From: Clostridia bacterium
Lineage (GTDB): Bacteria > Bacillota > Clostridia > Christensenellales > Borkfalkiaceae
Direction: 5' to 3'
DNA length: 64,000 nucleotides
Assembly: GCA_017445995.1 (NCBI GenBank)
Contig: JAFSRT010000023.1
Location: forward strand, 62,001-126,000
Part shown: in pieces, positions 14,989 through 21,034 of the stretch
Layout of the letters: each line of letters starts with the position of its first letter
Numbering within the stretch: position 1 is the first letter of the stretch
Made by a program: the position numbers and the translations under genes
The notes under the pieces: model-generated
Databases searched by the model: none
The model's input: the letters and a program-made list of their open reading frames with translations, nothing else
What the model was told of the DNA's origin: nothing

Positions 14989-15774
14989 TTAGTTATTTGC
15001 AGAGTTGTTTTCTTGCATTTCTGCAACGATTTGCAAAACCCTTAAAATCATTTCGAGAAGTGCTATTATAATGTTGTTTACGTATTCGATATTATATAAT
15101 CTGAATAAGTCTTGCATCATAGCGATTTCTTCGTCGGTTGCAAGCCCGTTTTCCTTTAACATATCGATTGCTTTTGCCTGCGCTTTCTTTTCGGTCTGCA
15201 ATACTTTGATTGAAAGAACGAAAGAAACAGCGTAAATCAGCAAGCCTACGATAGCCGTTATAAGCGTGGTGATACCGAGAGTGTTAAAGGTTATTATATC
15301 GATAATAACGCCGATAACGATAAGCGGAATAAAAGCAAACGGCCCGAAATAGATAAGCGGGGTAAGCATAACTCTCGTTTTCATATCCTTGTCGTTTTCT
15401 TTGTCGAGAACGGCAAGCCCCGTTTTCTGACTTGCCATAGCAAGCGACGAAATACTTTCCTTTTTAGCGGTAAGCCTTCTTAACCTTATTTTGTTGAAAT
15501 AGTGGCTGTAACTGTTGCCGAAAATAATAGAACCGAAGGTAGAAACCTTAATGTGGTTAAGCCCGTTTTGGTCGAGAAGTTTTCTCGCTGCGTCGTTACC
15601 CGAAATGCCCGCGCTGTTCTTTCTGCGGTTATACTTGATATACGAAACCGCAAGGTAGATAGAAACGCCGGCAGCAAAAATGCCAACGATAACTATTAAC
15701 GCTACGACGACAGCCATTGCGATATACAATGCTTCGCCGTTTTTTAACCCGTTTAATACTTGTTCAAAATCCAT
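14989..15774 (-). CDS. YugP-like membrane protein lacking the zinc-peptidase motif
   Basis: The 261-residue protein has an N-terminal membrane helix, a soluble part, and three more helices, the layout of the YugP family (Zn_peptidase_2). The segment DAARKLLDQNGLNHIKV matches the YugP region before the active site, and two helices follow as in YugP. Where YugP proteins have the zinc motif (AAHEAGHA), this protein reads MASQKTGLAVLD, so both histidines and the glutamate are lost. It is probably a non-catalytic relative with a binding or scaffold role. It stands alone between the tRNA region and the cloverleaf repeats. Confidence 0.65.
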   Translation of the reverse strand: MDFEQVLNGLKNGEALYIAMAVVVALIVIVGIFAAGVSIYLAVSYIKYNRRKNSAGISGNDAARKLLDQNGLNHIKVSTFGSIIFGNSYSHYFNKIRLRRLTAKKESISSLAMASQKTGLAVLDKENDKDMKTRVMLTPLIYFGPFAFIPLIVIGVIIDIITFNTLGITTLITAIVGLLIYAVSFVLSIKVLQTEKKAQAKAIDMLKENGLATDEEIAMMQDLFRLYNIEYVNNIIIALLEMILRVLQIVAEMQENNSANN

Positions 15775-15880: not shown

Positions 15881-15960
15881 TGTCATACCGAAACCGCCTG
15901 CGGTTGAGTGTATCTTAAATAAAAGATTTCTTCGTATGCTGTCGCATACTCGAAATGACA
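15881..15960. repeat. Cloverleaf repeat, copy A
   Basis: An 80-bp unit opening TGTCATACCGAAA and closing TCGAAATGACA; the outer six bases pair (TGTCAT/ATGACA). Three arms follow inside: CCGC/GCGG, ATCTT/AAGAT and GTATGC/GCATAC. Just after it, 15968-15984 repeats the closing 17 bases once more. Not protein coding; an open frame of 92 codons on the minus strand across copies A and B is only the repeat translated. Confidence 0.85.
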
Positions 15961-15991
15961 AAATGAAAGCATACTCGAAATGACAAAAAAG

Positions 15992-16074
15992 CGTCATACC
16001 GAAACACTTGAAAAGTGTTGAGCGTATCTTAAATATAAGATTTCTTCGTATGCTATCGCATACTCGAAATGACA
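15992..16074. repeat. Cloverleaf repeat, copy B
   Basis: Same family as copy A. The first arm is CACTT/AAGTG in place of CCGC/GCGG, the middle arm ATCTTA/TAAGAT, and the third GTATGC/GCATAC. The opening reads CGTCATACC, which leaves five of the six outer pairs. Again a short extra copy of the closing end follows (16082-16098). Confidence 0.85.
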
Positions 16075-16156
16075 AAATGAAAGCATACTCGAAATGATAA
16101 AACAGTGTCATACCGAAACGGCAACGCCGTTGAGCGTATCTTATAAAAACACGTTA

Positions 16157-16441
16157 TTACAAAATACTATCATATAAATCGATACGTTCTTTATTTATTG
16201 TATCAATCAATTTCTCTTTGTTTTTATGTGATAATTTTTTTACGTATTTTTCCCTGTTTAACGCTGTTTCAATATCGCTATATTCTTCGACGTATAATAA
16301 TTTATTTATATTGTATTTTTCAGTAAATCCTTTAACGAACTTGTTTTTATGTTCATATACTCTTCTTGCGATATCGTTCGTTACGCCCGTATAAAATACT
16401 TTATTATTCCAGTTTGACATTATATATACGTAATATTTCAT
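16157..16441 (-). CDS. Small GIY-YIG endonuclease-like protein
   Basis: A 94-residue single-domain protein: the YYVYIMSNW start gives the GIY motif as YVYIM, FYTGVTND gives the YIG motif as FYTG, then the catalytic Arg (IARRVYEHKN), and the late conserved glutamate/asparagine region (ALNREKYVKKLSHKNKEKLI). This is the UPF0213/YhbQ-type solo nuclease of about 90-100 residues. It lies inside the halves of a cloverleaf repeat and so may act on that repeat, for example by cleaving its arms or ends; this is inference from position. A housekeeping UPF0213 role is the alternative. Confidence 0.9.
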   Translation of the reverse strand: MKYYVYIMSNWNNKVFYTGVTNDIARRVYEHKNKFVKGFTEKYNINKLLYVEEYSDIETALNREKYVKKLSHKNKEKLIDTINKERIDLYDSIL

Positions 16442-16492
16442 ATCTTTACCTTGTTTATTATATCATAATACTTATCGTATAGCAAGATAAAG

Positions 16493-16519
16493 TTTTTTGC
16501 AATTAGTTATTGCAAAAAA
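16493..16519. repeat. Perfect 11-bp hairpin beside the GIY-YIG gene
   Basis: TTTTTTGCAAT/ATTGCAAAAAA around TAGTT, between the nuclease gene's start region and the right half-repeat. It could be a terminator protecting the gene from outside transcription; its role is unknown. Confidence 0.5.
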
Positions 16520-16562
16520 AGATATGCTCACTTGCTTACGCAAGTTCGATATGACAATAAGG

Positions 16563-16590
16563 TGTCATACCGAAAGCGTTTCTCCACCCC
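16563..16590. repeat. Truncated start of another cloverleaf repeat
   Basis: TGTCATACCGAAAGCG matches the opening of copies A-C, but nothing recognisable of the rest follows. A remnant. Confidence 0.6.
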
Positions 16591-16789: not shown

Positions 16790-19700
16790 TTACGAGAAAG
16801 TAATGTTACTTATTATTAAATCTCCAACAAATCCAGTACCGTCAGCATACGCCATAAACTGGAAGTTATTTGAAGAACTTAATGCATCTTTGAACGTTAT
16901 AGTCACCGTTTTTGTCTCACCTTTACCTATGGTAAGTGATACATAGAGATTATCACTAGACTGGGTTGCACCAGTTACAGAAGATATTGTAGATCTTGTA
17001 TGGTCGGCCTGGTTGCTCCAAGAAGTTTTTGAACAAATACGCAATTTAATCGTATTGTTGCTATCTTCCGTACAAGCATTTCTAACAGTAAACGATACCG
17101 TCTTATTTTCACTTGTATTGTTAACCAGTATAGCCAACGCATCCCCTGTTCCGCCACCATAATTTCTAGTTGAAGTAGCGGTTATCGTATCGGAACTGTA
17201 ACTATCACTTGAAGAACTGCCGCCAACTTTAAGCTGACCTTCCCAACTCTGGAACTTCGTTATCGTTTCTCCGCTTACCTTATCGCCTAAGGTTACGCTG
17301 TTAATCGTTACGGCCTTAGCAGGCATCGTTAAGGTGTTTCCACTTACGTCCGTTGCACTGCCACCCGCAGGTGTGTAGTTGAACGCAGTTACTACTTTCG
17401 TTTTATCTGTCGGCGTTAAGGTTACCGTGTCGCCTTCTGCCGCATTTTCTTTATCAACAGTAATTGTATTAACGTTATTCGTTACCGTGTAGTAAACAGG
17501 TTCAGCAAATTCAATCTTGAAGTTACCTACAAATCCACTATCAATCATTGAAGCGAAGGTAATGTAGAATTCAGTATTCTTAGAAATCGAATTAGCAAGT
17601 GTGATAGATACGGAAGCATTGCTGCCCATACTTATCGAATTGAATTTAGCTCGAACCCTACTATTGTCCGTATCAACTGAACCCCCTGTTACACTTGTGA
17701 TGCCTTTTAAGTTATTTAAGTAATTGTCATCAAAATCTTCATTTGAATTACTGATGCTTCCTCTTACTGCTGCATATAAAGTCAACGTATTATTGCTATT
17801 GCCCGTTGCTTGGTTATAAATCTTGAAGGTAATCGTAGATACGTCAGCAGTAGTACATTTAACTTTTGCATAGCCAAAGTGTTGCCTTTGTCCGCCGTAA
17901 TGTACTTTAGAGTCATAGATTGCTTCGGTCGAAGTATTACTTACAAAGCCCATATTGCCATTGATCTTACCGGCAGAAACTACCGTCAACGTCGTTGAAA
18001 CTACTGCATCCTTATAAGTTGCCATAACTTCTACGTCTTCATATCCTATCTCGAACGTCGTTGTCTCACTCGTTGCATCTGTGAAGGTGACATTTCCTTC
18101 CCAACCTGCGAATTCATATCCTTCACGTTCAGCGGCCGTTATCGAAATCGAAGTTCCGTGTGCACCGCTTGTAGGAGATGCAGTACCGTTAGTTACGGTG
18201 ACGTTATAAATTCTATCAGTATAATTTGCAGTAATCGTTACATCGGCAGCAGGCATTGTAAAGCACGCTGTCGAAGACGACGCACTCGTGTCGTTCGTGT
18301 AAGTTACACTTGGCGAAATCGTCCAACCGCTGAACTCTTTGCCTTGTGCCGCTTCACCTGCGGTAATCGTAATCGTTTGACCGTAAGTCGCCGTTCCGCT
18401 GTAAGTACCGTTGTTTACCGTAATCGTATAAACTATATCAGTATAATTTGCAGTAATCGTTACATCGGCAGCAGGCATTGTAAAGTACGCTGTCGAAGAC
18501 GACGCACTCGTGTCGTCAGTGTAAGTTACACTTGGCGAAATCGTCCAACCGCTGAACTCTTTGCCCGTTGCGGCTGCGCCTGCGGTAATCGTGATCTTCG
18601 TGCCGGCTGCTGCGAGAGACGTACTTGCCGTACCACCCGTTACCGTAATCGTATAACTTATATCATAAGTAACCGCAGTAATCGTTATGTTGCCTGTCAA
18701 CGTGAACGTGTTACCACTGTTGCCGTTATAGGATGCAACCGAACTGTTTGCACGGTCAGTATTGAGAACAACCGTCGAACCGTAAGTTGCTTCCGTTACT
18801 TCAACTCCGCCGACTTCAGCCCAAACGTCCGTAATCGAATTGTCGATTGTGATAGTGTAAGTTGCTAACTTATAAGAAGCAGAAATCGTTACGTCGCTTG
18901 CAGTCATTGTAAACGTTGTAGTGCTTGTTTCACCGTCAAGCGTTACGTCGCTGGTCCATTCGTCGAATTCATATCCTGTTGCAGGAGTGTTTGCAACGAT
19001 TGTTATCTCTTCACCCGGTTTAGCCGTTGTAATTTCTTCTTCGTTTGCATTATATGCTTTTGCATTAGTAAGATTAATATCGTAATCGTTAGAAACGACT
19101 GCCGCCGTAATAATTACACCGCTGTTTGGCATTTCAAACGAATCAGTATAAATTGTTGTCAAAGTTCTATTAGCCCTATAAGTAACGCTTACAATATAAT
19201 AATCGCTGTCAGCAACCGAAATATTTACTTCATCGCCGTATTGTGCGGAAGACGCAACCGTAACTTTATCGCTTACCTTATTAGTTATTGAGTAAGTAAC
19301 CTTACTGAACGTTGCGCTAACCGTTACGTCGCTACTTGGCATTGTGAATACGTTTGACTGAACGGTAACTTCGTTTTCGCTTTCGTCAATAACCGATAAC
19401 GACGCTAACTGATAGCCGGTCGACGGCGTAACCGTTAAGTAAACTTTGTCGCCCGTCGCTGCGTTTGCAACGTTAGCAGTAACCGAACCGTTATCTGCCG
19501 AATCAATATTTACGGCATTACCCGAAGGCGCTGCGCTACCCGAACCGAAATAAATATTAGAAATAGTTACAGTATTGTTTGGATCATACGTTGTGTTTGA
19601 ATACTGTGGACAAACTTTCAAACATATATTAGTGCCTGAAAACGCACTTGACAAGGTAATGGTTACATTAAGATGCTCACCTTTAGCAATTGAATTAATA

Positions 19701-21034
19701 ATTGCACCTTTATTTGTAGCATTATTTCTTCCCGCACCTATTGTACCATTTGTCGTTGAAGATAACTCAACTTCGTCATTATACATATTAGATGCACCTA
19801 CCGCTATACTTACTTTTGCATTTAACGTGTTATTGCTGTCTGTCGTTGCATTGTTTGTTATCGTAAAAGATACTTTTGTCTGGTTATTACCACCGTTTAA
19901 CTGAACAACGAAACCGTTATCTTGTTGATTTGCCCAGTTATTATTTGTTGTGCCCGACACAGAATAATTATCTTGCGCAATATCAACGGAAAAATTATTG
20001 TGATATTCGCCCGTGATTGCTACGTACGATACGCTGTCTTCAACGGTTACCGATACCGTTTCCGAATCGGAATAGTTTCCGCCGTTAGAATTTGCGTAAG
20101 TAACGGTTATCGTTGCCGTACCGTTCCCAACCGCAGTTATCCTGCCGCTATTAGAAACCGTTGCAACGTCCGTATTGCTTGAAGAATACGTTAAAAGTAC
20201 GTCTTTTGCGGAAACACGTTCTTCGTTTAATATCAAAGACGATTTAATATCGTAAGTGTTGCCTACGCTTAACGTAACTGCCGAAGTATTTAATTCTAAT
20301 TCGTACTCTAAATACGTGCCTGCTGCAACGTTTGATTCTGCCGTCGCTTGGTTTATGCCATTTTTACTGTAAAAAGCAAGTTGCAATACGTTATACAAGT
20401 TGGTTTTCTGTGCCGACGTATAATTTTTCGTTGTGTCGGTAAGCGCCGCACTTGCAACGTAAGAATAACTTCTCTTATTGTTATCGCCGAAACGTGCATA
20501 AGTAAACGTATCGTCCGATTCGTCAGACGGCGTTCCGTTGTTATTTACGATACAGAACAAACCGAAGAACGTTCTCGACATATTGTTGTACTGAACACCG
20601 CCGAGAGTGAGACATAATTCGTGCGAACCGTCCTCATTGTCTTTATACGGCGTTATATGGAAGTTGTGTTGAACCGTGTTCGAACTAACTTCTGCATAAG
20701 CCGTTTTAAAGTTGGTGTAGTAATCGTAACTGTCAGAATACGTCGTCGTTATTCCAAGATATTCCATCCAGTCGAGCGGTGCGATAAACGCGCCGAAAGA
20801 CAAGTTGTCGTTTGCCTCAACATTTTCAACAAGATTGTCGGCAACGATTGCCCCGAATCTCAATCCTTGCGAACCGTCCATTCTGACAGCGGCGCCTGCC
20901 ATTTCAAAAGTGTTATCGGCTACGGTAGCGTGTGCTTTTTTACCGTTTAACGAATAAACGCCGAAAAACATTGAAATAACGAAGGCTACACATAGGCTTG
21001 CTATAAGCCATAAGTTCTTTTTCCCTGTTTTCAT
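16790..21034 (-). CDS. Giant secreted multidomain protein (BIG2, InlB-type repeats, jelly-roll-like modules)
   Basis: A 1414-residue exported protein. Signal peptide about 1-38 (MKTGKKNLWLIA... KKAHA). Residues about 43-235 form a domain with GAAVRMDGSQGLRFGAIV, of a kind I have seen only as an uncharacterised N-terminal region in clostridial secreted proteins. A BIG2 Ig-like domain follows (about 256-333; TYSSSNTDVATVSNSGRITA). Three related modules at about 335-496, 1017-1178 and 1255-1414 share a core of the type N-x-ATxDSNNTLxxxxx and may be beta-sandwich binding modules. Seven divergent InlB B-repeats lie at about 505-1016 and an eighth at 1180-1255. There is no LPxTG anchor and no catalytic signature. 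It is the last gene of the xylan operon, so substrate or cell-surface binding is a reasonable guess. Confidence 0.8.
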   Translation of the reverse strand: MKTGKKNLWLIASLCVAFVISMFFGVYSLNGKKAHATVADNTFEMAGAAVRMDGSQGLRFGAIVADNLVENVEANDNLSFGAFIAPLDWMEYLGITTTYSDSYDYYTNFKTAYAEVSSNTVQHNFHITPYKDNEDGSHELCLTLGGVQYNNMSRTFFGLFCIVNNNGTPSDESDDTFTYARFGDNNKRSYSYVASAALTDTTKNYTSAQKTNLYNVLQLAFYSKNGINQATAESNVAAGTYLEYELELNTSAVTLSVGNTYDIKSSLILNEERVSAKDVLLTYSSSNTDVATVSNSGRITAVGNGTATITVTYANSNGGNYSDSETVSVTVEDSVSYVAITGEYHNNFSVDIAQDNYSVSGTTNNNWANQQDNGFVVQLNGGNNQTKVSFTITNNATTDSNNTLNAKVSIAVGASNMYNDEVELSSTTNGTIGAGRNNATNKGAIINSIAKGEHLNVTITLSSAFSGTNICLKVCPQYSNTTYDPNNTVTISNIYFGSGSAAPSGNAVNIDSADNGSVTANVANAATGDKVYLTVTPSTGYQLASLSVIDESENEVTVQSNVFTMPSSDVTVSATFSKVTYSITNKVSDKVTVASSAQYGDEVNISVADSDYYIVSVTYRANRTLTTIYTDSFEMPNSGVIITAAVVSNDYDINLTNAKAYNANEEEITTAKPGEEITIVANTPATGYEFDEWTSDVTLDGETSTTTFTMTASDVTISASYKLATYTITIDNSITDVWAEVGGVEVTEATYGSTVVLNTDRANSSVASYNGNSGNTFTLTGNITITAVTYDISYTITVTGGTASTSLAAAGTKITITAGAAATGKEFSGWTISPSVTYTDDTSASSSTAYFTMPAADVTITANYTDIVYTITVNNGTYSGTATYGQTITITAGEAAQGKEFSGWTISPSVTYTNDTSASSSTACFTMPAADVTITANYTDRIYNVTVTNGTASPTSGAHGTSISITAAEREGYEFAGWEGNVTFTDATSETTTFEIGYEDVEVMATYKDAVVSTTLTVVSAGKINGNMGFVSNTSTEAIYDSKVHYGGQRQHFGYAKVKCTTADVSTITFKIYNQATGNSNNTLTLYAAVRGSISNSNEDFDDNYLNNLKGITSVTGGSVDTDNSRVRAKFNSISMGSNASVSITLANSISKNTEFYITFASMIDSGFVGNFKIEFAEPVYYTVTNNVNTITVDKENAAEGDTVTLTPTDKTKVVTAFNYTPAGGSATDVSGNTLTMPAKAVTINSVTLGDKVSGETITKFQSWEGQLKVGGSSSSDSYSSDTITATSTRNYGGGTGDALAILVNNTSENKTVSFTVRNACTEDSNNTIKLRICSKTSWSNQADHTRSTISSVTGATQSSDNLYVSLTIGKGETKTVTITFKDALSSSNNFQFMAYADGTGFVGDLIISNITFS
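18214..18565. repeat. 222-bp near-identical internal tandem duplication
   Basis: 18214-18343 and 18436-18565 are almost the same sequence, offset by exactly 222 bp (74 codons). They encode InlB-type repeats 5 and 6 of the giant protein (KEFSGWTISPSVTYT in each). Only a few substitutions separate them, so the duplication is recent or kept alike by recombination; copy number may vary between strains. Confidence 0.85.

Follow-up and report, generated by a model that had tools for sequence, protein, structure and literature searches.

The 64-kb window, that is, the whole stretch of DNA that was analyzed, probably contains a gene of an Ssn-type GIY-YIG nuclease placed in the spacer between two cognate CGTC-tagged REP repeats arranged head to head, beside two gene-less copies of the pair; the repeat would fold and be nicked, and repair would sometimes copy the unit. 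The locus looks like one example of a widespread partnership of repeat and nuclease, because the pairing of such a gene with such repeats recurs in many phyla. The cluster is bordered by a metallopeptidase gene (14989-15774, minus strand) and a 1414-codon gene (16790-21034, minus strand), between which there are three consecutive inverted hairpin pairs. The first two, gene-less unit 1 (15881-15960), with the tagged hairpins TGTC...CTT and AAG...GACA placed head to head, and gene-less unit 2 (15992-16074), also a head-to-head hairpin pair, have short spacers, and each forms a cloverleaf when single-stranded, in line with the cloverleaf repeat named in the earlier note. At 15961-15985 the tail of the right arm (GCATACTCGAAATGAC) is partly duplicated. 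The third pair consists of a left half at 16106-16142 (plus strand; TGTC-ATAC-CGA-[AACGGC-AAC-GCCGTT]-GAGC-GTAT-CTT) and an inverted right half at 16520-16556 (minus strand; TGTC-ATAT-CGA-[ACTTGC-GTAA-GCAAGT]-GAGC-ATAT-CTT), and its spacer holds the 94-codon gene of the single-domain, 94-aa GIY-YIG nuclease (16157-16441, minus strand), so that both the flanking halves and the position of the gene at the loop of the would-be central hairpin agree with the earlier description. An extra tag without an intact hairpin, which is a truncated half, is present at 16563-16579 (plus strand). The GIY-YIG gene is the sole gene inside this intergenic element, which has no Y1 HUH transposase (HUH plus catalytic tyrosine), and in its flanks (AAACAG and ATAAGG) no target-site duplication was obvious by eye. 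No recognizable GIY-YIG remnant was detected in the gene-less units of the window. In relatives of the home genome the metallopeptidase gene is kept without the element, but the neighboring genes differ from those of the window, and these loci were therefore not accepted as informative empty sites.

All halves of these units are complete hairpins with two storeys and have the form (T/C)GTC-AT..-hairpin-..AT-CTT, in which (T/C)GTC at the outer end is followed by a 4-bp stem starting A-T, T-A, an internal loop with CGA on its 5′ side, an upper stem of 5-6 bp with a loop of 3-5 nt, and the return to the CTT tail. Pattern searches of the home genome (1.19 Mb) found eight intact halves versus no control matches; six of them are at the window locus, one is on contig 10 and one on contig 11, and 8 of the 10 GTCATNNCGA sites in the window fall within 15.88-16.57 kb. 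All eight halves open with TGTC (seven) or CGTC (one), and all have A-T and T-A as the first two stem pairs. Folding of units 1 and 2 as single strands with DNA parameters (unit 2 from position 15991) gave z values of -3.9 and -4.3, and none of 200 shuffles of each was as stable. The nine pairs of the eight halves are paired in 72 of 72 cells, with both-sided changes at seven of the nine pairs (21 cells in total); neither this number of cells nor the percentage of pairing was reached by any of 500 shuffles, and a shift of the partner by 1-3 columns lowered the pairing to 19-51%. The half on contig 10 (position 71362; 1501-1560 of locus L006 of the home genome, G000) is placed directly before the start of a TetR-like regulator identified by eye, and its second arm seems to run into the coding sequence of this regulator.

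Over 103 nt (15903-16005 versus 16017-16119) the two tandem gene-less units have 94% identity, yet their left upper stems are wholly different and unrelated, although paired in both. Judged from this comparison, it seems that hairpin stems are exchanged as whole blocks. The single mismatch that the earlier note had reported between the outer inverted repeats of the gene-bearing element is a compensated change, ATAC/GTAT versus ATAT/ATAT. The base-for-base match of its halves to the intact units, which had also been claimed, holds for the left half (30/36 and 31/39 columns matching), but not for the right half, which matches either intact right arm at only 25/37 columns and is of the left-arm type. 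Because this half does not copy the intact units base for base and is of a different subtype, plain insertion of the gene into such a unit is unlikely, and it is also unlikely from the alignments that the third unit is simply unit 1 or 2 split by the gene.

The repeats were compared with the CGTC-tagged REPs defined by Di Nocera et al. (2013; PMC3733652), which include neisserial dRS3 and Rickettsia RPE repeats and occur in several phyla. This class has a CGTC (or TGTC/CCTC) tag at one end, complementary A-T at the first and second stem positions, an uninterrupted stem of 8-9 bp, a loop of 4-5 nt, a CCA-like tail and a high copy number, and both dimers and heterodimers with different stems have been described; the same study reported no dedicated transposase beside these repeats and no link to a nuclease, and it left this question open (PMC3733652). 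The window repeats share with them the CGTC/TGTC tag, the AT start of the stem, the small loops, the heterodimers with different stems and the arrangement in inverted dimers, which are here the two gene-less pairs and the gene-bearing pair. They differ in the CTT instead of CCA tail, in the two-storey stem (4 bp, internal loop, 5-6 bp), and in having only the eight halves in the genome instead of a high copy number. The locus is also like REPtrons, which combine GTAG REPs and a RAYT transposase of the Y1 HUH type, and like REPINs, in that an enzyme gene is placed between inverted REPs and gene-less REP pairs are dispersed nearby, but the enzyme is a GIY-YIG nuclease and not an HUH transposase, and the tag is CGTC/TGTC and not GTAG. 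A search of the 2006 survey of the GIY-YIG superfamily (PMC1564403) returned neither COG2827 nor YhbQ, and the passages there that use the word repeat do not concern REPs. In text searches of the literature, which mostly covered papers outside subscription, none of the papers connected GIY-YIG with such repeats.

The only Pfam match of the window protein is to GIY-YIG (PF01541, 3.9e-15), and its fold, predicted with 45 homologues at a mean pLDDT of 97, has no additional domain. The conserved columns of the homologue alignment include Y6, Y17, G19, R27, H31, E64 and N83, which we take to be the expected active-site residues of the superfamily. The closest solved structures are those of UPF0213 proteins (best 1zg2) and Slx1. 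The fold is common to the window protein, UPF0213 (1zg2) and the GIY-YIG homing endonucleases of the I-TevI type; in contrast to the former, whose UPF0213-like sister clade is mostly without repeats, the window protein is repeat-associated, and unlike the latter it has neither an intron nor a DNA-binding extension. A GIY-YIG homing endonuclease carried by a self-splicing intron, such as a group I intron, was considered and rejected, because the element is intergenic and matches no intron model (no Rfam match at E 0.1). The Ssn family of Neisseria, reportedly described by Chenal et al. in Nat Commun in 2025, is said to comprise site-specific GIY-YIG nucleases of single-stranded DNA with NTS repeats, whose cleavage of single-stranded DNA reportedly takes place at a repeated sequence and which reportedly modulate natural transformation. 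The window protein is likewise a small single-domain GIY-YIG protein with the catalytic residues, and its gene has target-like repeats both beside it and elsewhere in the genome; a Neisseria gonorrhoeae homologue with 35% identity belongs to the same supported clade, a grouping with Ssn which is based on this gonococcal protein and not on a published Neisseria Ssn sequence. It differs from Ssn in the repeat sequence, which has variable stems, in the very low copy number, in being a predicted nuclease only, and in the emphasis on a unit of gene in repeat pair with gene-less derivatives. The earlier note knew of no described element of this kind; that the kind is undescribed is not supported, because most features of the repeats fit the CGTC-tagged class and because the Neisseria homologue of the Ssn nucleases is in the same group as the window protein.

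The association of gene and repeat was analyzed using 80 loci from one scan of bacterial and archaeal genomes, 18 from relatives of the home genome, and 32 from plasmid records. After partial and near-duplicate loci were dropped, 72 close homologues were compared with control segments moved outwards by 400-1000 bp. Tags were located on both sides, no more than 200 bp away, in 48 of the 72, as compared to 6/66, 5/64, 3/63 and 5/59 displaced segments (Fisher p 6e-18 versus two pooled displaced sets), counts which are partly inflated by a tag definition widened after some loci had been seen. Ungapped inverted repeats between the upstream and downstream flanks (score at least 13), which are unaffected by this definition, were present in 26/72 loci versus 2, 0, 1 and 1 of the displaced ones. 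Some of the 24 close homologues without the searched tags on both sides carry variants. Among distant GIY-YIG relatives both-side tags were found in 5/28 versus 1-2 of 23-24 displaced segments. GTCAT and its complement occur at about 2-4 per kb within 200-300 bp of the gene and at a background of about 1 per kb beyond, with flat profiles of control words; minus-strand loci were treated as plus in this profile, and correcting the orientation mostly swaps the sides. A 100/100 split in the maximum-likelihood protein tree separates a repeat-associated clade, in which 49 of 76 members are tagged, from the rest, with 4 of 27. The clade includes proteins from relatives of the home genome, Chloroflexota, Bacteroidota, Pseudomonadota, Fibrobacterota, Abditibacteriota, Omnitrophota, Cyanobacteriota and several candidate phyla, as well as the gonococcal homologue, which is flanked by GTCATTCCCGCGCAGGCGGGAATC repeats that look like the dRS3-type CGTC-1 repeats (PMC3733652).

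This association across phyla and its concentration in one clade bear out the proposal of the earlier note that gene and repeat belong together; the outcome named there as refuting, a gene present in many relatives with no repeat halves beside it and a repeat never interrupted elsewhere by such a gene, did not occur. It is highly probable that the repeat and the nuclease are a cognate pair. In 19 gene-bearing genomes the loose pattern GTCATNNYGA..ATC was in most cases at least 5-fold more frequent than its reversed control (for example, 159 versus 0 and 301 versus 13), but not in all (37 versus 35 in genome G103). Other genomes with the gene contain tens to hundreds of similar sites, and many genomes, such as G001, have repeats without the gene. 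On plasmid p1 of Planktothrix agardhii (L147) a GIY-YIG element with GTCATTCTGAG repeats is placed between an MmeI-type restriction gene and the DISARM gene drmA. The GIY-YIG ORF of Fibrobacter UBA4223 (L099, L102 and L104) is longer, with 121 aa, and is present as several copies that have diverged from one another; their surroundings are very rich in repeats, and a downstream coding sequence is common to them.

In rhizobia, one gene clade of Rhizobium, Shinella and Sinorhizobium (L149, L152, L163) is flanked by repeats of the GTCATCC(C/T)(A/C)GGGCTTGACCC type and a second one (L148, L162) by repeats of the GTCACAG type (GTCACAGGGAT-type), and S. meliloti Ak57 has both clades, each beside its own repeat type. 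As read from these flanks, gene clade and repeat type travel together within rhizobia. Internally deleted copies with the ends of the full element and intact repeats were found at two Sinorhizobium loci (L161 and L163). A repeat pair in S. meliloti LMB1 surrounds a gene fragment with codons 10-27 and, by eye, also the last codons, and a repeat pair upstream of the full element in Ak57 keeps codons 68-94, which are 93% identical to the adjacent full gene. Since GIY-YIG remnants remain between these repeats, internal deletion was the origin of at least some of the gene-less pairs. Hence, the idea of a full element with MITE-like offspring, put forward in the earlier note, is supported by the Sinorhizobium copies, but not by the gene-less units of the window itself, which retain no such remnant. 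The hflX-mazG site of Ak57 and Sinorhizobium K101 was rejected as a pair of filled and empty sites, because both have the gene and Ak57 has one extra repeat copy.

Some GIY-YIG match was present in 22 of 22 genomes of one Legionella genus, which also contains degraded and multiple copies. Wherever a genome there has a clear number of sites of one particular repeat type (160, 20, 9 and 8), it also has strong matches to the clade, and several other gene-bearing genomes of the genus have none of that type. It was also considered that the nuclease was recruited by the host and acts at the repeats, thereby tuning the uptake, recombination or repair of DNA, with the repeats spreading otherwise. The reported modulation of natural transformation by Neisseria Ssn and its repeat would be consistent with this, as would the genomes with hundreds of repeats and few genes, and the conservation of the hairpin suits a target site no less than a mobile end. 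However, gene-bearing elements scattered between relatives, degraded and multiple copies in one genus, and deletion derivatives look selfish and not like housekeeping, and we regard such recruitment as unlikely.

The comparison of empty and filled sites suggested in the earlier note was possible in Azospirillum. In A. lipoferum 4B a 507-bp element with GTCATCCCCGCGAAGGCGGGGATCCAG repeats at its boundaries separates sufB from sufC and contains the gene. When joined, the flanks of this element align as a single piece with A. ramasamyi (92%), A. oryzae (91%) and sp. B510 (88%) and as two pieces with A. thermophilum, and the site contains neither gene nor repeat in any of these four species, although the empty-site junctions are too diverged for base-by-base reading. 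Shinella sp. PSBB067 (L144/L156 as a pair of loci with A. lipoferum) has a different gene-bearing repeat element at the same sufB-sufC position. The absence of both gene and repeat from the four other species favors the arrival of the whole unit in A. lipoferum, which is not what is expected if the nuclease gene invaded existing gene-less repeat pairs by cutting and was copied in at repair, as homing endonuclease genes are. Such homing is suggested by the position of the window gene in a spacer at the central hairpin loop, by the gene-less pairs adjoining the gene-bearing one, and by the fold, which is that of homing endonucleases (PMC1564403). Nevertheless, the right arm of the gene-bearing unit differs from those of the neighboring intact pairs, and, together with the Azospirillum sites and the lack of an intron model match at the window element, this makes homing quite unlikely.

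In genome G131, from the genus of Legionella massiliensis, five GIY-YIG copies (L210, L211, L212, L213 and L215) are 98.8-100% identical and end at the same base (..GTCAACAGACCCTA) within unrelated flanks. The same end, of ~60 nt, also occurs in five further copies (L226-L230), which belong to a second multicopy family that by eye reads like an IS5-type transposase gene. The nuclease and an IS of this genome may share an end, as suggested by these alignments, and the five dispersed copies were not accepted as proof of mobility, because their end is common to the other, IS-like family. The shared terminal base is what could be expected if an insertion sequence carried gene and repeats and the nuclease had no role in movement, but at the window locus and in the sufB-sufC elements of Azospirillum and Shinella there is no visible transposase or end of an IS, and we consider this explanation very improbable. 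That the repeats are transcription terminators or RNA hairpins beside which a nuclease gene landed by chance is hardly credible, even though REPs are located between genes and can act at the RNA level (PMC3733652), given the rate of association, its fall-off with distance, and the pairing of gene clades with repeat types.

The locus is best read as a nuclease gene within its cognate repeat pair. The repeat would become single-stranded during replication, repair or DNA uptake and would then fold, and the nuclease would recognize the hairpin and the TGTC/CGTC tag and nick there; that it cuts single-stranded repeat DNA is rather likely. Repair or template switching could sometimes copy the unit elsewhere, duplicate it in tandem or swap a stem, and could sometimes delete the gene, leaving gene-less copies. 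To our knowledge, a hydrolytic nuclease alone has no strand-transfer activity; movement would therefore need host repair, and it is somewhat doubtful that the nuclease itself drives the dispersal. The home genome shows little sign of recent activity, because it has only the eight halves and one such GIY-YIG gene. More tentatively, and with considerable doubt, CGTC-tagged REPs across bacteria could be the non-autonomous offspring of minimal mobile elements with a GIY-YIG single-strand nuclease as their only enzyme, a missing counterpart of RAYT/REPtrons without transposase chemistry, whose stems would be replaced as blocks. The data tie one nuclease clade, across many phyla, to CGTC-type repeats, a class which, according to the 2013 survey, has no dedicated enzyme (PMC3733652). 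This makes directly testable what spreads CGTC-tagged repeats and whether a hydrolytic nuclease can drive an element without a transposase, and it supplies numerous natural pairs of enzyme and target for cutting single-stranded DNA at specific sites.
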